Positions 12,792 through 32,547 of a DNA stretch of 49,801 bases are shown here, in pieces. Location: the NCBI GenBank assembly GCA_030445775.1, contig JASUTC010000006.1, positions 1 through 49,801 on the forward strand, written 5' to 3'. The stretch's first letter is position 1. Every line of letters begins with the position of its first letter. This DNA is from Thermotogaceae bacterium. GTDB taxonomy: Bacteria > Thermotogota > Thermotogae > MWEM01. The notes beneath the pieces are model-generated. The model worked only from the letters and a program-made list of their open reading frames with translations. It had not been told where the DNA came from and did not search any database. A program made the position numbers and the translations under genes.

Positions 12792-12854
12792 ATGGGAAAA
12801 CATCACAGGTTTTTCTTTTAATTTCGTGAACTGTATTTGGGGGTACTATCTGTT

Positions 12855-14558
12855 TTGAAACTGAAAATATATATTTTAATAGGAACTTTCTTATTGATAT
12901 CGATATCATTTTTTTCTCAAGAACTGTATTACATTCAGCCAGATGGAGGGTATACAAGGTTTAGAGAGCCGGATGTATCGATTGTTAGCGGAAAACTAAT
13001 GATAGCCGTGGAAATATTAACTGAATTAGGTGCCGGAGTTACATCCTTTTCCGGCAGTAATAAATATTACATCATTAATAAAGAAATGGGAGAGACATTA
13101 ATTATTGATCCGTATAGTGGGATTTCTCTCAATTTTCTGGAAAAATATGAAGGACTTGTGATGATGATAAACGACCGGGTCTTTATTTCCGCTGAATCTG
13201 TTTTTCCCTTTCTGAATTTAAATTTCCTTTCAAATGAGCGATATTATGTATATAAAGAAAATTCCGTAATCAGATTGAACAAGGCGGAAATGAACATGAG
13301 AACTGTAACGTTCGAGTTTTCATCACAATTTTTTGACGTAGAATCAATCATCAAGGTTAATACGAAGGGTAATGAGGCGGATATTACGGTTTTCCCCGTC
13401 AGTCCCGATGAAACAACGATTAGAGGAATTATATTGAAGAACAACGATCCCTTTTACTCTGAATTTAATATTCAATTTAACGTTCCGGTTGATTATAGAC
13501 TCGTAAAAGACGGAAATAAAGCAATCGTGTATTTTTCTCACGTTGACCCATATCTTGAAGAAATCGAAGTGCTTTCACAAGGTGTTCAATGGTATCGAAA
13601 AAAAGAGATCTTTGAACAATCAACACTAAAAGTAACCTATCTTGAAGTAGATTTAACTGAAGCAGATGTAAAAATAATACCTGAAATAGCATTTGATGGT
13701 CTTGGTTCTAAAGATAAACTGAGTAATATGGTTCGTAAAAATTTTGCAATTGGTGGCGTCAACGCTTCCTATTTTGATACTTCTACAAATTTTCCTGTTG
13801 GTATTTTAATAAAAGATAGTCAAATTGAATCTGAACCTTTTTATTATCCAAGGCCTTTTTTTGTTAAAACGGACAAAAACACTTATCACATACTGGACAT
13901 TAATACTGAAATACACCTGCGTATAGGAGGATCTCTGTTTTTGGTTAAAGGGGTTAATAAGTACAGCCAAAACGGTGATGTTATAGTTTATACTGATAAC
14001 TTTAAAAAATTAATTCCACAAGATTCCAACAGGGATTATGTCGTCATCTCAAATGATAAGGTTATTTCTAAAACATATACTCCCAAAGTACCTAAAGGTG
14101 GAAAAGTAGTCGTATTCAATCCCAAAGAATTATCAAAATTTATCAAAATCGGAGATACTTTTTCGATGCAATTTATTGTCCCGGGATTTCAATATAAAAT
14201 TACAGATGCCATTGAAGGTGGGCCGATGCTATTGTCAGGGGGAAAGAAAATTGTGTCTACCAACAGTATAAAGGCAACTTATGGACAAAGAATAATTGAG
14301 GGAAGGACTCCAAGAACTGTCCTTGCTCTTTCAAAAAACAAAGTAATATTATTGGTCATCGATGGGTATCAAACGACAAGTTCCGGATTGACTTATGACG
14401 AGCTAACTGACTTTCTTTCAAAGAAGGGGTATTCAGATGCCATGTGTTTTGATGGAGGATCATCATCTGTGATGTCCATTGGATCCAGAATAGTCAATCA
14501 ACCTTCTTCAGGTGAACCTGATATCCCAGTTGCTATTTTAGTTGACAGAAACGACTAA
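12855..14558 (+). CDS. Exported protein with phosphodiester glycosidase (NAGPA/DUF2233-like) domain
   Basis: Probable extracytoplasmic protein. The first 20 or so residues form a signal peptide (KLKIYILIGTFLLISISF then a Ser-Gln-Glu junction). Residues to about 120 resemble the stalk-like domain that often precedes wall-associated enzymes (VSGKLMIAVEILTELGAG). The C-terminal 280 residues match the phosphodiester-alpha-GlcNAcase/DUF2233 fold: GGVNASYFD, EGGPMLLSGGK, RTPRTVLAL and CFDGGSSSVM followed by the PVAILV end. The family hydrolyses sugar-phosphodiesters or acts in exopolysaccharide metabolism. The substrate here is unknown. The TTG at 12855 is chosen because GGGGGT lies ten bases upstream. 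A TTG at 12837 lacks such a site. Confidence 0.82.
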   Translation: MKLKIYILIGTFLLISISFFSQELYYIQPDGGYTRFREPDVSIVSGKLMIAVEILTELGAGVTSFSGSNKYYIINKEMGETLIIDPYSGISLNFLEKYEGLVMMINDRVFISAESVFPFLNLNFLSNERYYVYKENSVIRLNKAEMNMRTVTFEFSSQFFDVESIIKVNTKGNEADITVFPVSPDETTIRGIILKNNDPFYSEFNIQFNVPVDYRLVKDGNKAIVYFSHVDPYLEEIEVLSQGVQWYRKKEIFEQSTLKVTYLEVDLTEADVKIIPEIAFDGLGSKDKLSNMVRKNFAIGGVNASYFDTSTNFPVGILIKDSQIESEPFYYPRPFFVKTDKNTYHILDINTEIHLRIGGSLFLVKGVNKYSQNGDVIVYTDNFKKLIPQDSNRDYVVISNDKVISKTYTPKVPKGGKVVVFNPKELSKFIKIGDTFSMQFIVPGFQYKITDAIEGGPMLLSGGKKIVSTNSIKATYGQRIIEGRTPRTVLALSKNKVILLVIDGYQTTSSGLTYDELTDFLSKKGYSDAMCFDGGSSSVMSIGSRIVNQPSSGEPDIPVAILVDRND

Positions 14559-16747: not shown

Positions 16748-16766
16748 TTAATTGAAAGAGAGAAGG

Positions 16767-19301
16767 ATGGTTATCAAAAAATTTAAGAAAAACCAAATTT
16801 TTCACATATTGATTCTGATCATACTCCTTATACCCCTGATGGCATTCACCCAGGATGAAAATATCCTACCAGGCCCAGGAGAGATCATGGTGGAAATTTC
16901 AGCAGGGGCTTTTAATTTTTCAGGTAATAACGAAAAGGTAGTATTTTCAGAAGGTGTTGAAATCAAATACGAAGATATAATCATTAATGCCCCTACAATA
17001 ACTGCCTTTTTTGTAAATGAAGATACTGTTGATTATTTTTATGCTGAGTCCTCTGATAGTACCCCTGTTTATCTTTATAAAGATAAAGAAACCTTTACAT
17101 CCAAAAGTCTTAAAGCTTATGTTCAAAAAAAAGCCTATTTTTTGTATGAGCTTCGAGGAACTTACAAAGCAAAAAACGCAAAGGGTAAAAACAAAGAAAT
17201 CATTTTGGCGGCGGAAAAAAGTCGAAGTAAACCGTTCGATGAAAAAAACATTACTGAGGCACAAAAGGGTTATTTAACAACTTGCGAAGAAACAAAACCA
17301 CATTATCGCTTCCAGGCAAACTATATTGTAGTCAAAGAAAGTAATGAAATTATTGCATATGATCTCTTAATGTATATTTACGATATCCCCGTGTTACCTT
17401 ATCCGGTTTACTTTTCATCATTAGAAAGAAAGGCTCAGCCGGTTGAGTCGTCTTTCACTTTTACAGGTTCTTCAGGAATACAAACACACTTGCGATTCAA
17501 TTACTATTCTAAAGATGATGAAATTGGGGCAGTCTTTTTTGATACAGTAGGTGATGGTGATAAAAAAGGGAATACAATAGGTGCTGAAAACAAATTTACA
17601 TTACCTGACGGCAAGACAAGGGTCTATTTTTATGGCCTTCAAAAAACGCAAGAGGATTTCTCCAACCGATCCAATCAATTGAACTTTGAACTGGCTCGAA
17701 AATGGGATGAACAATTCGAATCTTTGTTTTATTTTAACAACAAAATGAGTATTGCAAATGATGAAATAACGAGCAGAAATACGGATTATGGTATAAGTTT
17801 AAAAGGAAAAGTTAATAATTCCCCTTTTTCATTTAATTTACAGAAAAGCGAAGTCCGATCAAAGAGTAAAAATATCAACACTATTACCGCACCTTCTTTT
17901 GCCATCTCAAAAATGGGTTTTAATTTTTTCCCTGAGACCTTCCCGATCAGTTTAAATTTCAAGGATTTAAAATTCAGCGCTGCCAATACATCAGAAGCTT
18001 CTGTTTCTTTTTGGGAAAAATTATCAGAATTGAACTATAATGGACAATATGGGGTTTCATCAGCCTTACCTGAAATTATCATTCGTGATGTGAAATTGGT
18101 GAACGGATTTACAACAGATATCAATTACTCTTTTAAAAGCCAGGAAAAGTATACCGATGATTTTAAAATCGATAATACCTTTACATTACCAAAAATCGGA
18201 TTTAATTGGGAGGATTTTTTTGGTATTAACACCCAATATACAATGAGAGCCGGTTTCTTGCAGAATTATGAAGATAAAGAAGCTTACAGGTATTCGGAAA
18301 ATGTTCTTACCAACCTGAACTTTAACCTATTTTTCTGGAAAAACACCATCACACATGATTATGTTTTTCTTAAGTCAGAAGGTAATACCTCAAGATTTAA
18401 TTATAATAAAGAGAAAAACTTGGTGAATTTCACTTCCATTTTGGATCTCGCCTTCATTTCATCAAAGATTACCGTTAAAACTTCATACGATTTTTTAAAA
18501 GATGAGCAGCGATTATCTAACCCCCAATTGATAACCAATACAGATCTTAAATTACTGGATACTCGCTTTAAAGTTGATACGAAGAGTATTATAGATGCGA
18601 GTGATACGAAATTTTTATCCACTGATTACAGCTTCGCCGTGAATAATACCTATTTTAACAATCAATTGAATTTCGTTTATCTGTATGATCAGGAAATCAA
18701 CATAAGAAAGTTAACGGATTCATTCGGCTTCTCGTTTGGTCCCATAAATAATTTTAAAAAATTCTCATCGAATTTCGAGCTCATCTTTAATTATTATGAA
18801 GAAAATCAGGGATTGGATTTAGATAAACTCACCAATAAAAATTCAATTTCTTTTGGCCAAATTGGTCCGATTAACACTCTGGTGAATAATTTTGACATAC
18901 AAATATTTCCAAAGGAAGAAAAAACAGATCAAAAGATCAACTATATTAAGAATTCTCTGAGTCTCAAATTCGACAAAACCACATTGGGATTTGAAACAAA
19001 GTATTCCAGGTCAAAGAAAATAGATTTTGATTTTTCAGGCAGTTTTGACAAGTTGAATTTGAATTTCGGAACACGTTACGATATGGAGAATAAGAAATTT
19101 GAAACCCTTAAAATAGCCATCCTTAAAGACCTGCATTGTTGGCAAAATGAAACAAGTGTTGAATTTGCCTTAAAAGATCAAGGTGGCCAACAGAAACTCA
19201 CTTTAGACAAATTCTCAACCAGTTTTGCAATCAAACAGTTTCCTGAAAAATTCGTTAAAGTGCAGCCGTTGAAAAAGGAATTCGACTTGGCAATTTTCTA
19301 A
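16767..19301 (+). CDS. LptD/OstA-like outer-membrane beta-barrel protein
   Basis: Probable outer-membrane protein of about 845 residues. The N-terminus is a signal peptide (basic KKFKKNQ, then a strongly hydrophobic stretch ending MAFTQ). The next 110 residues resemble the OstA/LptA-type jellyroll (FSEGVEIKYEDIIINAPTIT...). The remaining 600 are rich in alternating hydrophobic and polar beta-strands and end in phenylalanine (FDLAIF). In Proteobacteria LptD inserts lipopolysaccharide. Thermotogota are not known for classical LPS, so the cargo is uncertain. The ATG at 16767 has GAGAG upstream. A TTG at 16752 has no ribosome binding site. It converges on the HEAT-repeat gene with six bases between stops and no intervening terminator. 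Confidence 0.75.
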   Translation: MVIKKFKKNQIFHILILIILLIPLMAFTQDENILPGPGEIMVEISAGAFNFSGNNEKVVFSEGVEIKYEDIIINAPTITAFFVNEDTVDYFYAESSDSTPVYLYKDKETFTSKSLKAYVQKKAYFLYELRGTYKAKNAKGKNKEIILAAEKSRSKPFDEKNITEAQKGYLTTCEETKPHYRFQANYIVVKESNEIIAYDLLMYIYDIPVLPYPVYFSSLERKAQPVESSFTFTGSSGIQTHLRFNYYSKDDEIGAVFFDTVGDGDKKGNTIGAENKFTLPDGKTRVYFYGLQKTQEDFSNRSNQLNFELARKWDEQFESLFYFNNKMSIANDEITSRNTDYGISLKGKVNNSPFSFNLQKSEVRSKSKNINTITAPSFAISKMGFNFFPETFPISLNFKDLKFSAANTSEASVSFWEKLSELNYNGQYGVSSALPEIIIRDVKLVNGFTTDINYSFKSQEKYTDDFKIDNTFTLPKIGFNWEDFFGINTQYTMRAGFLQNYEDKEAYRYSENVLTNLNFNLFFWKNTITHDYVFLKSEGNTSRFNYNKEKNLVNFTSILDLAFISSKITVKTSYDFLKDEQRLSNPQLITNTDLKLLDTRFKVDTKSIIDASDTKFLSTDYSFAVNNTYFNNQLNFVYLYDQEINIRKLTDSFGFSFGPINNFKKFSSNFELIFNYYEENQGLDLDKLTNKNSISFGQIGPINTLVNNFDIQIFPKEEKTDQKINYIKNSLSLKFDKTTLGFETKYSRSKKIDFDFSGSFDKLNLNFGTRYDMENKKFETLKIAILKDLHCWQNETSVEFALKDQGGQQKLTLDKFSTSFAIKQFPEKFVKVQPLKKEFDLAIF

Positions 19302-20620: not shown

Positions 20621-21766
20621 TTATTTTGCATAATTATCTTTTGGACTTTCGTTTAATGCACTGAGGAAAAAGCCGAAACCGCCTAAAAAAGCCATCATTG
20701 AGCTACCTCCATAACTCACAAAGGGGAGGGTTACGCCGGTGGGGGGAAGTAATCCAAACACAACACCTACGTTGATTACTACTTGCAACATGATTAAATA
20801 AGCGAATGCTACAATAAAGACTTTTGCGGCATTATTGTAGATTCCATTAATTGCGGCTTTTATCAAATTTCTACACATAAAATAATAAAGAAAAAGAAAA
20901 ATGGCCATGCCAACAAAACCTAATTCCTCACCCAATATGGCAAAGATGAAATCTGTAAACTGAACTGGGATAATATATTTGTAATTTCCCATTCCTAAAC
21001 CTTCACCCAATAAACCTCCGGATGAAATTGCCTGCAAACTCACATCCACCTGGCCTTCAGACGTTATTTCCTGACTTAAACCCAGAAATGACTGGATGCG
21101 CTCCATCTGATAAGGCTTCAGTAAATCAAGTTGGAATAACATAACTACGCCAATGATGCACATAATCATAATAAAGACAAAATAGGAAAATTTTAAACCA
21201 CTTATATATAGTACAATCAATCCAATCAAAAAAACGATCATTGAACTGCTTAAATCAGGTTCAACGGCTATCAGCAGAGTGATCATAATGATCCAACCCA
21301 AGGGGATCATTAGTTGTTCCAAAATCCCATTTTGTCTGTTTTCGTTATCTCTAAAAAAATAAGAAGCAAGAAATAAAATGAGAACTATTTTTGCCATTTC
21401 AGAAGGTTGTAGATTCATAACTCCAAAATCAATCCATCTGCTGCTTCCGCCCTGTGCAGGAAAAATAAAAACTGCTAATAATAAAAATACAACACCCACC
21501 ATGTAAAATGGAGCCATTTGCATATGTTTTTGAAATGGTATCAGGGCAATTATAAACATGAAAACTAAACCAATAATGATGTTAATCATTTGTCTGATAA
21601 GATAATAATCAAAATCCATTTCGGGATATTTGTAATAGATGATATAACTGGAACTATAAAGTACCACAATTCCAATAACCATGATAAGAGAAAGAAGATA
21701 AATGATACCCTTATAATTTACCTTTTGCAGTTCTGGTTTTTTCAATTCATCGTTTTCTTGTTGCAA
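20621..21766 (-). CDS. ftsW: SEDS-family peptidoglycan glycosyltransferase FtsW (or RodA)
   Basis: Inner-membrane polymerase that uses lipid II to build glycan strands. 381 residues with about ten membrane segments. SEDS landmarks: GGSSRWIDFG with LQPSEMAK, VEPDLSSS (carrying the catalytic aspartate region), SSGGLLGEGLGMG, FTDFIFAILGEELGF and NVGVVFGLLPPTGVTLPFVSYGGSS. The last two segments are more FtsW-like than RodA-like, but the distinction is not certain. The start is a TTG with TTGGAG five bases upstream. The coding region overlaps the preceding GIY-YIG gene by 25 bases. Its class B PBP partner is not in the window. Confidence 0.9.
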   Translation of the reverse strand: MQQENDELKKPELQKVNYKGIIYLLSLIMVIGIVVLYSSSYIIYYKYPEMDFDYYLIRQMINIIIGLVFMFIIALIPFQKHMQMAPFYMVGVVFLLLAVFIFPAQGGSSRWIDFGVMNLQPSEMAKIVLILFLASYFFRDNENRQNGILEQLMIPLGWIIMITLLIAVEPDLSSSMIVFLIGLIVLYISGLKFSYFVFIMIMCIIGVVMLFQLDLLKPYQMERIQSFLGLSQEITSEGQVDVSLQAISSGGLLGEGLGMGNYKYIIPVQFTDFIFAILGEELGFVGMAIFLFLYYFMCRNLIKAAINGIYNNAAKVFIVAFAYLIMLQVVINVGVVFGLLPPTGVTLPFVSYGGSSMMAFLGGFGFFLSALNESPKDNYAK

Positions 21767-22170
21767 TTATACTCCAATACCTTTCTTATAATTGAGAAAT
21801 AGTCGTCCAAATGATTACTTAAATAAAAAAGATTTGAATCTACTCTTTTACAATCCGTTGCTCCAAATCCTGGAACCGTTTGATAGAAGCTTGATAAAAA
21901 CATGGATAATTCTTCTTCCGTACGTTTAACGCTTGGTAATGCCAATGTCGAGATGACCTTGCCCTTCTCAAGTAATTGATCAACATGCCAATGTTTTTTA
22001 TAGCCACCTTCTTGAAAAGATATATGCCTGTTGATCCTTTGCTTAAGGTTTTTCATCGCAGAACCGACATAGGTGTATAAACCGTTTTGAATAGGATACT
22101 CTTTCCCGGATATTGTCACCACAATATCCTCCGGTATTTCAATAAATAATAAATAACTCCCCTTATTCAT
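21742..22170 (-). CDS. GIY-YIG/COG1833-type small protein
   Basis: A protein of about 142 residues with the pattern of the COG1833 (DUF123) branch of the GIY-YIG superfamily. GLYTYVGSAMKNLKQRINRH gives the Y-x-x-YVGSA core and its conserved arginine, followed by KKHWHVDQLL. The C-terminal GFGATDCKRVDSNLFYL carries the usual GxGxxDC...S.L.. motif. Relatives are found alone or fused to endonuclease III, and their nuclease activity is not well established. Starts at 22182 (GTG), 22176 (ATG) and 22170 (ATG) are all in frame. The last has GTGAG at the best spacing. It overlaps the end of the GlyS frame and the start of ftsW, so it is part of the same message. Confidence 0.8.
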   Translation of the reverse strand: MNKGSYLLFIEIPEDIVVTISGKEYPIQNGLYTYVGSAMKNLKQRINRHISFQEGGYKKHWHVDQLLEKGKVISTLALPSVKRTEEELSMFLSSFYQTVPGFGATDCKRVDSNLFYLSNHLDDYFSIIRKVLEYNCNKKTMN

Positions 22171-25100
22171 TTTCATTCTCACTATTCAGAACAATTTCAC
22201 TAAAATTCCCTAAATTTAGTAAGAAATCGTCCAATGTTTTTAGAAAACCTAAACGGGTTAACTTCAAATCCTCCCTTTCTGACATAACAAAAACATTATC
22301 AAAGTAATTATCAACTGGTTCTCTTAATCCCTTGATTACTTCCAAGGCTGTTTTATAATCGAATCGCTTTAAAGCTTGGTCCACTTCATCTCTTATGTCA
22401 TTAAACTTCTCTTCTAATTGAATTTCTTCATCATGCTCAAACAATCTGGCGTCATAATAATGGGATTTGTGATTTTTACTAATATTATGAATTCTTTCAA
22501 ATATTCGAGTAAGATTGATGAAATCCTCTTGTTTTCTAATATCCATTAGACTTTTTGCGGCAAAGATACATCGAATAGGATTCTTGACAAGATGATGGGT
22601 GGCATTTATCACATCGTAGTCAATATCATTTTCACTGAGAAAAAATTCTATTCTGTTTTTCAATAGATCAACAAAGATGTTGGACAACGTTTGTTTTTTT
22701 TCTTCAGTTAAATTAAAATCATATAAACTCAAAGCAAACAGAAAGAAATAATTAAGATCCATATCCCATTCTCTTGAGATGATTATCTTTAAGCATTTTG
22801 TCAGCGCTCTTCTCAAACCAAAAGGATCTTTTGAACCGCTTGGTATATTGTTAATCAACAAATTCCCGGCAATTGTATCTAAGTTATCCGATAAGGTTGT
22901 TATAGAACCGCATAATGTTTCAGGAGCTTGTTCAACGTATTGTTCTTCAATAGCTTGATAAACATCATACGTCTCCCCGGAAATTTCGGCATAGATTCTC
23001 CCCATAATTCCTTGTAGCTCAGGGAATTCGTAGACCATTTGCGTTGTTAAATCATTTTTCAACAACATACTTGTTTTATGAACTTTTTCTCTTGTCTCTT
23101 CATCTAAATCAAAAATGGAACATATTTCTTTTGAAAGTTTGTCAACTCTAATAACTTTATCAAAAAGCGAGCCCAGTTTATTTTGAAATCCAATATCCTT
23201 TAGTTCTTGAGTTCTTTCTGTAAAAGGTATTTTTAAATCTTCGTGATAATAAAAAAGAGCGTCTTCCAGCCTTGCTTCGATCACCTTACGATAACCTACT
23301 TTTACATTTTTCCGGGAATGTTCTTCATTATCTTGAAAGGAAAGAAAATTAGGAATGATTTTTTCATTTTTTAAGACCGGGAAAGTTCTTTGATGATGCT
23401 TCAACGTTGTTATTAAAACCTCTTTTGGTAGGGCTAAAAATCTCTCGTCATATTTACCTAAAACAGCATTGGGATATTCGGTTATTGCAGTTACTTCATC
23501 AATTAATCCTTCATCAAATGGTACTTGAATGTCATTACCCTGCTCAATTTTTCGGATGTCTTCTATGATTTTATCTTTTCGTATTTTTTGATCCGCATAA
23601 ACGTTGTTTTCCAACATTTTTTCAAAATAAACCTCAGCTGATTCAATATTAACTTTTTTAGTATCTTTGAATCTATGAGCAAATGTTGTTTTAGTTGACG
23701 GAATTCCCATAAAGTTAAACGTTACCAATTCATTGGATAAGATCGATAAAATGCTGTGTATGGGTCTTACAAACTTATATTCACCATTACCCCATCTCAT
23801 GGGTTTTTTAAAATTAAGATTTTCAAGAAAATGAACCAGTTCTTTTTCAAGTATCTTCTTTGTCTTTTCACCCTTAACCGTTCTTTTAATATAACAATAC
23901 TCATTTGAGTTTTCTTCTTGAAAAATGAGGTCATCCTCAGTAGCCTTATTGCCTCTTAAAAAACCCAACAAAGCTTTTGATGGATTTCCTTCTGCATCAA
24001 ATGCAATTTTCTTTGCCGGTCCCCTTTTAACTTCTTCCAGATCGTCTTGCTCCAATGCCATATTATAGATGTAAATACCAAAACGTCTCGCAGCATAAAA
24101 AAAACTCAGCTGATCATGCTTTATCCTTAAGTTATGAAGGAATTTAGAAAAACCTTTCTCGAATTGTTCTTGCAATCCAAATATTTCTGTAGGCGGAATT
24201 TCCTCAGTCACAATTTCAAGAATAAAGTCATTATTTGTCATTATCACAGGTCTCCCTTCAATCTCTTTTTTAAATTTTTTCTCAGGGTTTTTATCCATTA
24301 ATATGAGTTTTAACAAAGGTTTTTTGTCTATTTTTTTAATTTTCTTGTTAGATAAGGCATGATAAATAGAGTTGGCTTTAAATTCTCGTTCATTTTCAAA
24401 AACAACTTGGGTTTTAAATAATCCTTTGATTGATGATAAGAAAAAAATATCACAGCGTTGATTTTGAATATGCTCTGTATCAAGTTGTAAAAATGAATCA
24501 TTCTTACGACCGATATCCTGTATGAAGAGTATTGGGCTGTCATCATTTTCAATGTTAAGATTTAAAAACGATGGCATTACTTCACACGCTTCACTTTTGT
24601 TAAGTATAATCGTATTTATACCACTTTCATTGAAAATCCAACTGATAAGATCTTCTTTTATTTGATTCTTTTTTCCAAAATAATCAAAAACCCCTGAATT
24701 GATTGCATTTGAAAACTTGTGTCTTAATTCACCGTCTTGATTGAGTGATTTGCATTCCTTTCTTTCAGAAGCAAATACAGTGTGAATACCCAGAATGAAT
24801 GCACCTATTACCACAAAAGAATCAGAAACGTTAAAAACTGCAAACCCATTGACATAAACAAAATCAACTACAGCCCCCTTGAAGAGACGATCGATTTGGT
24901 TTCCTAATGCACCGCCAATAATTGATCCAAAGGCAAAAGCTAACCAAGGGGATTGTCTCACGAATTTCAAAGAAACAATAAAAACCATTCCAATGATGAC
25001 GAAAACCAGTGGGATTAGGATATGAGTATACCCTTGAAACATACCAAAAGAGATACCGGTATTGCCGACATTAGTTATCATCAGAAAATTTCCTAAAACC

Positions 25101-25198
25101 TCAATGGTTTCTCCTGGGGAAATTAACTCAACGATAATTTTTTTTGAAAACTGATCTAAAAAAAGAGCAAAGACCAGCCAAAACGACATTAATATCAT
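22163..25198 (-). CDS. lspA-glyS: Fused frame: lipoprotein signal peptidase LspA + unknown segment + glycyl-tRNA synthetase beta subunit GlyS
   Basis: One uninterrupted 1011-codon frame. Residues 1-145 are a complete signal peptidase II: NVGNTGISFGMF, GGALGNQIDRL, and the two catalytic aspartates in VVDFV and FNVSDSF, within four membrane spans. It would cleave prolipoprotein signal peptides. Residues from 320 on are a full-length beta subunit of tetrameric glycyl-tRNA synthetase, starting FILEIVTEEIPP and containing the FAHRFK, HHQRTFPV and DPFGLRRAL landmarks. The roughly 170 residues between are not recognised. A Met at 320 (base 24241) has its own ribosome binding site, so GlyS may be made separately. 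The partner GlyQ is not in the window. The fusion could be real, or the product of an old lost stop or a sequence error. Confidence 0.85.
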   Translation of the reverse strand: MILMSFWLVFALFLDQFSKKIIVELISPGETIEVLGNFLMITNVGNTGISFGMFQGYTHILIPLVFVIIGMVFIVSLKFVRQSPWLAFAFGSIIGGALGNQIDRLFKGAVVDFVYVNGFAVFNVSDSFVVIGAFILGIHTVFASERKECKSLNQDGELRHKFSNAINSGVFDYFGKKNQIKEDLISWIFNESGINTIILNKSEACEVMPSFLNLNIENDDSPILFIQDIGRKNDSFLQLDTEHIQNQRCDIFFLSSIKGLFKTQVVFENEREFKANSIYHALSNKKIKKIDKKPLLKLILMDKNPEKKFKKEIEGRPVIMTNNDFILEIVTEEIPPTEIFGLQEQFEKGFSKFLHNLRIKHDQLSFFYAARRFGIYIYNMALEQDDLEEVKRGPAKKIAFDAEGNPSKALLGFLRGNKATEDDLIFQEENSNEYCYIKRTVKGEKTKKILEKELVHFLENLNFKKPMRWGNGEYKFVRPIHSILSILSNELVTFNFMGIPSTKTTFAHRFKDTKKVNIESAEVYFEKMLENNVYADQKIRKDKIIEDIRKIEQGNDIQVPFDEGLIDEVTAITEYPNAVLGKYDERFLALPKEVLITTLKHHQRTFPVLKNEKIIPNFLSFQDNEEHSRKNVKVGYRKVIEARLEDALFYYHEDLKIPFTERTQELKDIGFQNKLGSLFDKVIRVDKLSKEICSIFDLDEETREKVHKTSMLLKNDLTTQMVYEFPELQGIMGRIYAEISGETYDVYQAIEEQYVEQAPETLCGSITTLSDNLDTIAGNLLINNIPSGSKDPFGLRRALTKCLKIIISREWDMDLNYFFLFALSLYDFNLTEEKKQTLSNIFVDLLKNRIEFFLSENDIDYDVINATHHLVKNPIRCIFAAKSLMDIRKQEDFINLTRIFERIHNISKNHKSHYYDARLFEHDEEIQLEEKFNDIRDEVDQALKRFDYKTALEVIKGLREPVDNYFDNVFVMSEREDLKLTRLGFLKTLDDFLLNLGNFSEIVLNSENENE
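24239..24257 (-). promoter_or_regulatory. Internal ribosome binding site and ATG at the GlyS domain start
   Basis: On the minus strand GAAGGGAG stands ten bases before an in-frame ATG (24241-24239) that falls three codons before the conserved GlyS N-terminus. Out-of-frame TGATAA directly precedes and overlaps the ATG, as if an upstream gene once stopped there. This supports separate initiation of GlyS. Confidence 0.6.
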
Positions 25199-25201
25199 CT
25201 T

Positions 25202-26311
25202 TTAATCCCTTTTTTGTTTCGAAAAATGTACCAGCTCTTGTTCAATAAAATCATCAATATCTCCATCCATGACAGCATCAGTATTGCCGGTTTCTGCGTT
25301 TGTGCGGAGGTCTTTAACCATTCTATATGGGTGAAAAACATATGAACGTATTTGATTTCCCCAAGACACATCATTTAACTCGCCTTGAATATCATCCGCA
25401 TTTTGTTTTTGCTTTTCACATTCAAGTTGATATATCTTTGACATTAACATTTTCATCGCTGTTTCTTTATTTTGATGTTGATTTCTCTGAGACTGGCATG
25501 TGACAACTATATTAGTGGGTAAATGAGTAATCCTGACGGCAGACTCAGTTCGATTCACGTGTTGGCCCCCTGCACCGGAGGCTCTGTAAAGATCAATTCG
25601 AAGATCATCAGGATTAATCTCTACTCTTATATTATCATCAATTTCAGGAAAAATACTAACAGATGCAAAAGATGTGTGTCTTCTGCTATTTGAATCAAAT
25701 GGAGAAATTCTTACCAATCGATGAATCCCCTGTTCATGTTTTAAATAACCATAAGCATAATCGCCTTTAACCAATATAGTGACACCTTTTATGCCCGCCT
25801 CATCTCCCGGCTGTGTTTCAATAATTTCTGTTGAAAAGGATCTTCTCTCTGCCCAACGTAAATACATTCTCATCAACATTTGTACCCAGTCTTGAGACTC
25901 TGTCCCACCAGCTCCTGCGTGTATTGTAATAAAGGCATTATTCATATCGAATTTATCATTTAACAACATTGATAATTCGAAAGATCGGACTTGCTTTTTT
26001 ATTTTCGTTAGTAACGATAAAAAATTCTCTTCCATCGCTTCATCTTCTTCTGCAAATTCAAGGGCAACTTCCGCATCCTCAAAGGTGTTGGTTATCTTTT
26101 TTATTTCATCAATTAATGAGCGGATGACTTTGGCATCTTTTAGGACTTCTGCAGCTTTGTCCGGGTCATTCCAAAAGTCACTTTCACTCATTTCTTTTTC
26201 TAACTTTTCTAATTTTTTTTGTGCAGTATCTAAATCGAAGACCTTTGAAGTCTCCTCAAATTTTTGTCTTAACTCCACAAAGGCTTGCTTATCATCATAA
26301 CCTAACATCAT
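25202..26311 (-). CDS. prfB: Peptide chain release factor 2
   Basis: Class I release factor that recognises UGA and UAA and hydrolyses peptidyl-tRNA on the ribosome. At 369 residues it is full length. The stop-recognition tripeptide SPF is present near residues 203-205, which makes it RF2 rather than RF1. GAGGQHVNRTESAVR near residue 247 carries the catalytic GGQ. The helical N-terminal domain with DFWNDPDKA is complete and in one frame, so the programmed +1 frameshift found in many prfB genes is absent. GAGGTG overlaps the secA stop just before ATG-ATG. Three bases separate its stop from the lspA-glyS frame. Confidence 0.97.
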   Translation of the reverse strand: MMLGYDDKQAFVELRQKFEETSKVFDLDTAQKKLEKLEKEMSESDFWNDPDKAAEVLKDAKVIRSLIDEIKKITNTFEDAEVALEFAEEDEAMEENFLSLLTKIKKQVRSFELSMLLNDKFDMNNAFITIHAGAGGTESQDWVQMLMRMYLRWAERRSFSTEIIETQPGDEAGIKGVTILVKGDYAYGYLKHEQGIHRLVRISPFDSNSRRHTSFASVSIFPEIDDNIRVEINPDDLRIDLYRASGAGGQHVNRTESAVRITHLPTNIVVTCQSQRNQHQNKETAMKMLMSKIYQLECEKQKQNADDIQGELNDVSWGNQIRSYVFHPYRMVKDLRTNAETGNTDAVMDGDIDDFIEQELVHFSKQKRD

Positions 26312-28967: not shown

Positions 28968-30218
28968 TTAAAAGATTCTCATCACTTGCTTACTTATTTT
29001 ATCATCAAAAGTGGAAAAGAAATAATACGGAAATCCAAATTCCTCAATAAAATCATAACCCACTTCGTAAACTTCTCTTTTTCCAATTTTTTCTTGCAAA
29101 TCCAAAAGAGTTTGACTTATTGCATGTTCTTTCGATAAATCAAGAACTTTTTCAGGTTTAAAATTTGAAATCAAAAAAAGGTCATTCACAACACTTAAAT
29201 AATAACTGTTGGCAAATGGCTTAATCGTTTCTGTTTGGTCTATTCCCCATTTTGATATTTGGTTTTGAAATGAATCATTTTCATAAAACATGTTTTGCGA
29301 TTTGAACCCAATCAACCATTGATTGTTAAATTGATAATAAAACCCGTAAACACATAACTTGTCAATCAATTCATAAATCATTTGCCACTCGTCTATTGAT
29401 GAAATGACTTCAAAATGACTGTAAAAAAAATCTCTTATCTTTTGTTTTGCAAAGACAAAAAGACTCTCAGGTGATTCAAATTCAAGTGGAACTTCAATGA
29501 TTTGAATTGGAAATTGTGAGATTTCATTTGCGGGATTCATCGTCTTGATCTCAATATTTAGGAAGGAAAAGGCATTCGTCAGTGTTAAGTTTTTTTCTTT
29601 CGTTTCAGCATAAATGAGAATATCCTCAGAAAATTCATTTCTATTAATCATGTTTTTTTGATATTCTTTAAAATATTCAATATTTCTTGAGGCTATCAAA
29701 TAATCACCTTGTCGAAGGAATTGGATGTCAAATGTAGAAATGATTTCTAAAAGCTCCTCTAATCCTTCATAGGCTTCAGTAATTAAAAGGCCGTTATTTA
29801 GTCCTTCAAGAATTAATAAATAAAGTTTTTGAATATCAAACAAATAAAGTTCTGTTTCATCAAAAAGAGTATGGTCTATTTCATTGCTGATAATAATAAT
29901 TTTTGAGCGAAATAGTGTTTCAATCATAGTTAAATCACAATTATTTCTTTCAGAAATAGAATCCAGAAATTCCCTATTTCTATCAGTTAAGCGATTGGAA
30001 ATTATAAATTCTTGAACATTCTCAATATTTTGAAAGCCTTTGTTCCACTCCAAAGGGGCATTTAAATAACAAGCAAACTCATACTCCAAAGACCATGGTA
30101 TTGACTGGCTAAAGAGTGACAGTAAAAAAAAGATTATAAAAAAAATCAGTAAAAAGAGCCGACGAAGGCCGGCTCTTTGTGTATTTTTACAATTATTTTT
30201 CTTAGAACATTTGACCAT
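28968..30218 (-). CDS. Exported protein of unknown function between bamA and secA
   Basis: About 416 residues that I cannot assign to a family. A basic N-terminus (QRAGLRR) followed by a long hydrophobic run rich in Phe, Leu and Ile and ending LFSQS looks like a signal peptide. The rest is acidic, rich in Asn, Glu, Ile and Phe, of mixed helix and strand, with no visible catalytic motif, and ends VMRIF. The start overlaps the end of bamA. The ATG at 30218 has no good ribosome binding site, and a GTG at 30236 has a weak AAGGA. An intrinsic terminator-like hairpin lies within the codons for the signal-peptide n-region. Position between bamA and secA suggests an envelope role, by context only. 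Confidence 0.65.
   Translation of the reverse strand: MVKCSKKNNCKNTQRAGLRRLFLLIFFIIFFLLSLFSQSIPWSLEYEFACYLNAPLEWNKGFQNIENVQEFIISNRLTDRNREFLDSISERNNCDLTMIETLFRSKIIIISNEIDHTLFDETELYLFDIQKLYLLILEGLNNGLLITEAYEGLEELLEIISTFDIQFLRQGDYLIASRNIEYFKEYQKNMINRNEFSEDILIYAETKEKNLTLTNAFSFLNIEIKTMNPANEISQFPIQIIEVPLEFESPESLFVFAKQKIRDFFYSHFEVISSIDEWQMIYELIDKLCVYGFYYQFNNQWLIGFKSQNMFYENDSFQNQISKWGIDQTETIKPFANSYYLSVVNDLFLISNFKPEKVLDLSKEHAISQTLLDLQEKIGKREVYEVGYDFIEEFGFPYYFFSTFDDKISKQVMRIF
30149..30177 (-). terminator. Intrinsic terminator or attenuator just after bamA, inside the next gene
   Basis: On the minus strand AAGAGCCGGC / GTCGGCTCTT forms a ten-base stem (one G-U) with a CTTC loop, followed by TTTTTACTG. 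It lies about 25 bases after the bamA stop. It would end bamA transcripts while overlapping the presumed 5' codons of the next gene. Confidence 0.75.
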
Positions 30219-32547
30219 AGCCAAAAGTAATTCCACCCCATTTAGGTCCTTCTGAAGATATTAGATACGGAGAAAAATCCCAAGGTACATCTAATCTAAG
30301 TACACCAAAACCGGGAATATTAAATCTGAATCCAAATCCTAAACTGGAATATAACTTTGAATTTGAAATTTCACTAAATTTATTCCAACCCATTGCATTG
30401 TCGTTGAAAAGTGAAAATTCAATGGCAATGTTATTGGTATTAACAAATCTGTATCTGTATTCAAGGTTAATGGCACTGATATAATTTGCACGAATTCCTC
30501 TCTGATAATCGATTCCTCTGATAAAGATATTATTACTCCCACCAATTGAATAATTAATTGGATCATCTTCATCTTCCCAAGGAATTTGAGCGGAAATAAA
30601 CCGTCCTGCAAAAATATGATTTTCCCATGGTGAATAAAAGCCGCTGATAGATTCATTTAAACGAATCCAGTGATCAGTTACAAATTCAAAGGGTAAAGAC
30701 CATTCTGCTCTTGTATTAAAAACAAAACCTTCATTTGGACTGAACAGATCATCTCGCCTATCATATTGATAATCAGCTCCGAGTATCAGTTTGACTCCTT
30801 CTTTGGCAATTTGATTTGTAAAACTGGCATCATCCGTGCTGAAACCAAAGTTTTTAAAACGTCCCCAAGTTATATCCATACCTACATTTTGAAAATCATC
30901 GATTCGATAACTAATATTGGGCTTAATTGTGAAATCCTCTGATTCAAAGGTAACAACTGTTGCGATGTTGGTCTCAGTAGAGGGATCATTGATTTCTAAT
31001 GTTCTCTGATTAAAATTCTTACCATAAGAAAGACTAATTCCTGCGTCAATCGGGGAACTAAAAACACTGCGAACATTATAGCCCAAACTAATGTTTGGAT
31101 ATTTACCGAGTGTGGTTGACACATCAATCGTCTGACCTTGCCCCATTGGATTTTTTAAAGCTAATCCTATTTTTCCGTATATATTTTGAATAACAGTTTC
31201 TCCTCCGTATTTTGGATCGAAGGTGACATTTGTTTTAAATTCCACATTATTTTCCATTTCTTGTAATTTAACAATTATTGTGACAGCTGTTGAGTTTGCT
31301 GAAATCCCTAAAGGTTCAATATTGATACTTGAAAAATAGCCTGTCTTATTTAGATTAATATAAGTTTGCCTAAGTTCTCGCATGGTTACGGGTTTATTTT
31401 TATTAAAAGATATTTCTCTTTCTACCAAATCTTTCCTTGTTTTTGTTAAACCTTCAATACGATAATCTTTTAATATTCCCTCAGTTACTTTGAAAGTAAG
31501 CCTTTCTTCTGACTTGTAATACTTTGGAGTAATAACAACTAAAGGATAACCATTTTCTTCGTAAACGGCTTTAATCCTTTGAACATCTCTTAATACATTC
31601 ATAAGATTAATCTCTGAGTCATTAACTGATTTCAAATTATCTGTTAATTCGAAAGATGGGACCAAAGTATTTCCTTCGATAGTTAACGTCCTAAAAGGTT
31701 GTTTATCTGGAACAACAGGATTTAATTGAATCGTTACAACAAGATTGGTAACGTGTTCTCCGGTTTCAAGAGGCTGGGGATGATTCTCAAAATCCACATT
31801 CGTCTCAGGACCAATCAAACCGGTATTATAAAGCCTGGAAAATGCCATTTGTAATTCACTGTTGGAAGGGTAATAATTCTTTTTGATTAAAAACAATCTG
31901 AAAAAATCATTATAATAATCTTTTAATAACCTTAAATCAAGCAATTCCTTTACTTCTTCGTACTGGATATCGCCAAAATCCCCCTTTAAGATAATATCAT
32001 ATAAAGCATATTCCCAAATCTCTATTTTCAAAACTCCGTTTGGGAGAAATATCTCGGATTCATATTCTTGAACATTATTTTTTATTTCCAGTAACTGATA
32101 ACCGGCCATAATATATTGGTTTTTCAATGAATTTTGAGTTCTGATAAGCTTTTTATAATTAAGCGCTTTTCCTGTCTCAATACTGATATATTCTTCCAGT
32201 GTTTTCTTTGATACCAAACCAGGACCACTGATTTTAAGCTGAACATCACTAACAATCGGATATTCAATGACTTGTATGCTTAATATCTGGGAATCTTCGC
32301 TATATTTGCTCAATGTATATTTAACATCCTGAAAAAAGCCCATGTCTTTAACATTAAATATATCTCGCTCGATATCTGCGTATGTTACTTCGTTTCCCTG
32401 ATGGCATTTTGTGATGACTTGTAGAATTTCTTCTGTTGAAATGGTTATATTTCCTGTAATTTCCAACAAACCGATGTTAATTCCAAACGAAAGGCCTATT
32501 ACGGCAAAAAATGACAATGTGAGTAGTACAATCCTTTTAGGTCTCAA
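30202..32547 (-). CDS. bamA: Outer-membrane protein assembly factor BamA (Omp85)
   Basis: Folds and inserts beta-barrel proteins into the outer membrane. The roughly 781-residue protein has a signal peptide (RPKRIVLLTLSFFAVIGLSFG), several POTRA repeats (NITISTEEI..., RTLTIEGNTLVPSFEL..., DYRIEGLTKTRKDLVEREI) and a C-terminal barrel. The barrel has the family motif DRRDDLFSPNEGFVF and the lid loop IRGIDYQRG, a form of VRGY/F, and ends in GYGQMF with terminal phenylalanine. A TTG at 32547 is taken as the start, since CAGGAGGGG lies six bases upstream. An ATG at 32586 would add 13 residues before the signal peptide. It sits in a block with SecA and a lytic transglycosylase. Confidence 0.93.
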   Translation of the reverse strand: MRPKRIVLLTLSFFAVIGLSFGINIGLLEITGNITISTEEILQVITKCHQGNEVTYADIERDIFNVKDMGFFQDVKYTLSKYSEDSQILSIQVIEYPIVSDVQLKISGPGLVSKKTLEEYISIETGKALNYKKLIRTQNSLKNQYIMAGYQLLEIKNNVQEYESEIFLPNGVLKIEIWEYALYDIILKGDFGDIQYEEVKELLDLRLLKDYYNDFFRLFLIKKNYYPSNSELQMAFSRLYNTGLIGPETNVDFENHPQPLETGEHVTNLVVTIQLNPVVPDKQPFRTLTIEGNTLVPSFELTDNLKSVNDSEINLMNVLRDVQRIKAVYEENGYPLVVITPKYYKSEERLTFKVTEGILKDYRIEGLTKTRKDLVEREISFNKNKPVTMRELRQTYINLNKTGYFSSINIEPLGISANSTAVTIIVKLQEMENNVEFKTNVTFDPKYGGETVIQNIYGKIGLALKNPMGQGQTIDVSTTLGKYPNISLGYNVRSVFSSPIDAGISLSYGKNFNQRTLEINDPSTETNIATVVTFESEDFTIKPNISYRIDDFQNVGMDITWGRFKNFGFSTDDASFTNQIAKEGVKLILGADYQYDRRDDLFSPNEGFVFNTRAEWSLPFEFVTDHWIRLNESISGFYSPWENHIFAGRFISAQIPWEDEDDPINYSIGGSNNIFIRGIDYQRGIRANYISAINLEYRYRFVNTNNIAIEFSLFNDNAMGWNKFSEISNSKLYSSLGFGFRFNIPGFGVLRLDVPWDFSPYLISSEGPKWGGITFGYGQMF

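Follow-up and report, generated by a model that had tools for sequence, protein, structure and literature searches.

Anchoring of aminoacyl-tRNA synthetases to membranes is already known. In the CAAD-domain synthetases of cyanobacteria, for example Anabaena ValRS, it is achieved by an additional integral-membrane domain that belongs to the synthetase chain itself (PMC4893482), and in mycobacterial LysX an MprF-type membrane domain is joined to a lysyl-tRNA synthetase in one chain (PMC2713425). Neither of them uses signal peptidase II (LspA) or GlyS, the glycyl-tRNA synthetase (GlyRS) beta subunit. Here we describe a single reading frame, lspA-linker-glyS, carried by a contig of 49,801 nucleotides (nts) from a Thermotogaceae bacterium (JASUTC010000006.1, assembly GCA_030445775.1; hereafter the window), whose source genome is a draft of 119 contigs, 86% complete. 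Unlike CAAD-ValRS, the frame described here has a whole enzyme, LspA, as its anchor and the tRNA-binding subunit GlyS as its synthetase part, and a soluble form is probably made as well, from an internal start. As in LysX, an enzyme embedded in the membrane and a synthetase are combined in a single chain. However, the parts of LysX share one pathway, lipid lysinylation, whereas LspA and GlyS have no known pathway in common and the fused gene is the sole glyS copy found. Single-chain GlyQS (PRK14908; 7lu4, 7xjy) similarly carries a long in-frame N-terminal extension on the beta module, but there it is the catalytic alpha subunit, while here it consists of a membrane protease and an unrecognised segment, with glyQ encoded separately. 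Standard Thermotogota possess the same protein families, but as a glyQ-glyS operon and with lspA at a separate locus. No report of an LspA fusion with GlyS or another synthetase was found in the open-licence papers searched.

A sequence-only reading of this DNA had proposed that an LspA with all catalytic residues runs through an unrecognised segment into a complete GlyS. This was borne out: region 22163-25198 of the reverse strand is a single frame of 1011 codons with no internal stop (Table 1). The N-terminal module matches Peptidase_A8/LspA at residues 9-142 (E 2.9e-29) and exceeds the curated cut-offs of both TIGR00077 lspA (87.6 bits vs 73.95) and Pfam PF01252 (102.6 vs 25). Its two catalytic residues, Asp112 (in VVDF) and Asp126 (in FNVSDS), are present by alignment to the same positions of the solved LspA 9emz and 6ryo and are invariant in the three family members considered below. 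By these cut-offs and the Asp dyad the module is LspA, a predicted peptidase. LspA is also the only Pfam match of the membrane part, where no CAAD domain was found. The C-terminal module matches tRNA_synt_2f (residues 325-867, E 2.6e-170) and DALR_1 (residues 901-993), and reaches 677 bits with TIGR00211 glyS (cut-off 300), covering the full length of the profile (positions 1-684 of 684). This part matches E. coli-type beta chains in the PDB (8ie2, 7yse and 7eiv). The match to PRK14908 is restricted to residues 303-1002 of the fusion protein, the alpha subunit not being in the chain.

Table 1. Coordinates of the fused frame, its parts and its neighbours in the window
Feature	Coordinates	Strand	Basis or remark
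lspA-linker-glyS fused frame	22163..25198	(-)	1011 aa; frame shared by two relatives
LspA module (signal peptidase II), residues 1-143	24770..25198	(-)	PF01252, TIGR00077; alignment with 9emz, 6ryo
Linker, residues 144-319, coding by codon usage, without recognised family	24242..24769	(-)	Family searches and codon usage
GlyS module (glycyl-tRNA synthetase beta subunit), residues 320-1011	22163..24241	(-)	PF02092, DALR_1, TIGR00211
Internal Shine-Dalgarno core GGGAG	24252..24256	(-)	10-nt spacer to GlyS ATG
prfB, directly upstream	25202..26311	(-)	Stop 3 nt before lspA ATG; same order in L019, L020, L051
DUF123 (GIY-YIG-like) gene, overlapping the glyS 3′ end	21742..22182	(-)	Conserved neighbour

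The same fused gene occurs in two other genomes of this Thermotogota family, placed in another genus: it encodes 1098 amino acids (aa) in Thermotogae bacterium ADurb.Bin062 (MWEM01000064.1; G001, L019, L051) and 1116 aa in Thermotogaceae bacterium AS06rmzACSIP_393 (JAAYCF010000123.1; G002, L020, L050), in both cases without stops. Identity between the genera is 48-49% for LspA and 41% for GlyS, and these are therefore not one assembly seen twice. The fusion thus survived the check by which the sequence-only reading could have been refuted, namely a stop between the two parts in relatives. The same reading had left room for two separate genes whose stop or frameshift was masked by a sequencing or assembly error. 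All three genomes are indeed draft metagenome assemblies, but the same error would be needed in three independent assemblies of two genera, and the coding signal of the linker is consistent in frame. We regard this explanation as essentially refuted, because the two independent assemblies of the other genus keep the frame open.

Among the Thermotogota scanned (103 genomes, 38 genera), this family alone has the fused arrangement. An LspA match was present in 102 of the genomes, and it lay in a frame of at least 1000 aa in three of them, all from this family; in the other 99 the frame did not exceed 283 aa. In loci from other Thermotogota families, glyQ stands directly upstream of glyS, abutting or overlapping it (27/27, two of them judged by eye). 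The three family members carry glyQ on another contig, with other neighbours. Each of these drafts contains a single match to LspA and a single one to GlyS, both located in the fused frame, and one copy of GlyQ (G000:C2, G001:C20 and G002:C75); no dimeric GlyRS over the cut-off was found in the three genomes. From gene order we infer a single event that preceded the divergence of the two genera: in an ancestor of the family, a rearrangement would have taken glyS out of the glyQ-glyS operon and placed it downstream of lspA, in the same frame and with a coding linker between them. By eye, the family's glyQ is followed by a CxxC-motif gene resembling an anti-sigma zinc-finger protein, and an aminotransferase-like gene also follows it (L048, L086, L087).

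We examined the linker at several levels. Its 176 codons in the window would stay open by chance with a probability of about 9e-8 (base composition, 29% GC), the values for the three genomes being 9e-8, 7e-6 and 1e-6, and the other two forward frames across it contain 9 and 25 stops. With a codon-usage model trained on the other genes of the window, the fusion frame was positive along the whole window linker, and almost every window of the other frames was negative. For the pair of close relatives, the ratio of nonsynonymous to synonymous substitution rates (dN/dS) was about 0.18-0.19 in the linker (residues 144-330 of G001), against 0.07 in LspA and 0.12 in GlyS, all rough figures with synonymous sites near saturation. 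Judged from the DNA, the linker codes for protein, and purifying selection acts on the greater part of it. Slippage, whether programmed or transcriptional, would make a truncated LspA-linker a normal product, the A7 run AAAAAAATAG of the window linker being one possible site. The window linker does have A-runs where a one-base slip reaches a stop, but at 35% GC runs of this kind occur often, and the A7 run is not shared by the other genus, so that we hold this explanation to be very improbable.

As to the identity of the linker, it has no Pfam match and NCBIfam yields only a meaningless 0.03 match. Neither a PDB sequence search nor a phylum-wide profile search revealed relatives outside the family. 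AlphaFold models of the linker were unusable (mean predicted local distance difference test score, pLDDT, about 37); the succession of helices and strands predicted for the two genera is nevertheless alike. A Foldseek search recovered the LspA part alone. Three candidates were rejected. An N-terminal part of an M20/M28 metallopeptidase, suggested by a pattern seen by eye, was dropped as no support was found. A known Thermotogota LspA tail was not retained either, the frame past LspA in other genomes resembling an overlapping gene that is read in a different frame. Finally, the genes that follow prfB in relatives (rsmH-like, minD-like and others) showed no resemblance by eye. In other Thermotogota (L065-L076) a repeated pattern occurs past the LspA end, probably rluD by eye; in much of the phylum lspA may overlap its downstream neighbour out of frame.

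The GlyS module has a start of its own. Its ATG (24241-24239) comes after a strong internal Shine-Dalgarno (SD) sequence and two out-of-frame stops, TGA (24246-24244) and TAA (24243-24241), a feature that the sequence-only reading had pointed out. Site strength was estimated as predicted pairing with the 16S 3′ end, all in-frame start codons being compared. In all three genomes the lowest energy belonged to the GlyS ATG (−12.4, −11.7 and −11.7 kcal/mol), equalled in the window by a GTG two codons upstream; by the same measure the start of lspA is weak (−5.7, −2.7 and −4.7 kcal/mol). In the second genus a near-perfect GGAGGT lies about nine bases ahead of the ATG. Synonymous changes between the two relatives are unusually few in a 60-codon linker stretch not far upstream of GlyS (G001 residues 282-341; L051 5844-6023), with a synonymous difference pS of 0.27 vs 0.58 overall, a value reached by 20 of 2000 shuffles. 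This is a modest hint that a DNA or RNA signal, e.g. an internal promoter, overlaps the coding sequence. A TATAAT is found in the G001 stretch, about 150 bases before the GlyS ATG. Rfam elements such as a T-box were not found near glyS, nor was unusual folding of the region ahead of it. Of the products left open by the sequence-only reading, namely the fusion, free GlyS or both, the last is favoured because the other genus keeps the open frame as well as the strong SD and ATG at the GlyS start.

Taken together, these features suggest, with fair though not high confidence, that the gene encodes two nested proteins, a membrane-anchored LspA-linker-GlyS and a soluble GlyS, both pairing with GlyQ. 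Ribosomes starting at lspA, a weak site probably coupled to prfB, would meet no stop, and every LspA would therefore be the N-terminal part of LspA-linker-GlyS unless translation is interrupted. In solved LspA structures both ends of the protein are cytoplasmic, so that GlyS would be exposed on the cytoplasmic face; the tail after the last LspA helix contains several K and R in all three genomes, balanced by acidic residues. The anchored GlyS would then pair with the separately encoded GlyQ into a membrane-tethered glycyl-tRNA synthetase. The beta part of single-chain GlyRS is preceded by about 310-360 residues (7lu4, 7xjy), and GlyQ could join a tethered GlyS since single-chain GlyQS shows that an N-terminal extension of beta is tolerated. 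The strong internal SD and ATG, kept in both genera, would give the second, free GlyS, which to judge by site strength is probably the main source of GlyRS. In its most developed form, to which we give slightly less than an even chance, the proposal would be an obligate fusion: the only signal peptidase II of the cell would carry GlyS as a cytoplasmic tail, with an unrecognised linker domain between, tying a share of glycyl-tRNA charging to the membrane, and the conserved internal start would tune the ratio of anchored to soluble enzyme. A benefit of anchoring, such as the supply of Gly-tRNA near membrane-bound ribosomes, is speculation.

Several observations weigh against two nested products. 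The data come from three draft metagenome assemblies, two of them closely related, and hence represent two independent lineages. In the other genus the final ~48 codons before GlyS showed a dN/dS of 0.59 and little coding signal, as expected of a loose tether but equally of a near-neutral stretch; by composition this stretch would stay open with a probability of only 0.07 and 0.04. The linkers of the two genera have no significant similarity, either by Smith-Waterman alignment (957 and 1355 of 2000 shuffles reach the score) or by hhalign (E 0.21). Also, the linker could be cut. Indels in the final 48-codon stretch, for their part, preserve the frame.

Two other explanations draw on these observations. 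If the fusion were translated and the linker then cut, separate LspA (with or without linker) and GlyS would result, and the arrangement would serve co-production of two essential proteins rather than anchoring. The fast evolution of the linker and the poor constraint on its last part would fit, and we know of no membrane role for GlyRS. Yet cutting would make the strong internal start needless, whereas it is kept in all three genomes, and no self-cleaving domain was recognised in the linker with Pfam and NCBIfam; we therefore find cleavage unlikely. Alternatively, the genes may be nested with incidental read-through, selection acting separately on LspA-linker and on free GlyS, with the missing stop tolerated and the tail inconsequential. 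The strong internal start, the weak coding signal of the last ~48 linker codons in the second genus and the weak lspA start, by which few fusions would be made, agree with such a scheme. But the frame is open across two genera, and a neutral tether would easily gain a stop: about 9% of random codons are stops in the AT-rich window genome, against 0 in 176. This second explanation seems to us rather improbable.

Whatever the fate of the product, one frame, fixed in both genera, encodes two enzymes that are unrelated in function, normally essential and apparently present as sole copies. Should the fusion protein persist, it would form a membrane-tethered heterotetrameric GlyRS anchored by an enzyme, and would offer a natural test of the benefit of local aminoacylation at the membrane. 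The locus would also be a clear case of one gene whose conserved internal start gives anchored and soluble isoforms. Automated annotation may label such a product GlyS alone or LspA alone, and thereby lose the other function.

Concerning the surroundings, the DUF123 gene is followed by an FtsW/RodA family gene, and both of these downstream neighbours are kept in all three genomes. Elsewhere in the window, two genes on the forward strand, at 16752-19301 (849 aa) and 12837-14558 (573 aa), adjoin elongation factor G and have no NCBIfam match. A 422-aa protein encoded on the reverse strand (28968-30236), between secA and an Omp85/BamA-like gene, has no Pfam or NCBIfam match and is possibly an outer-membrane protein specific to Thermotogota.
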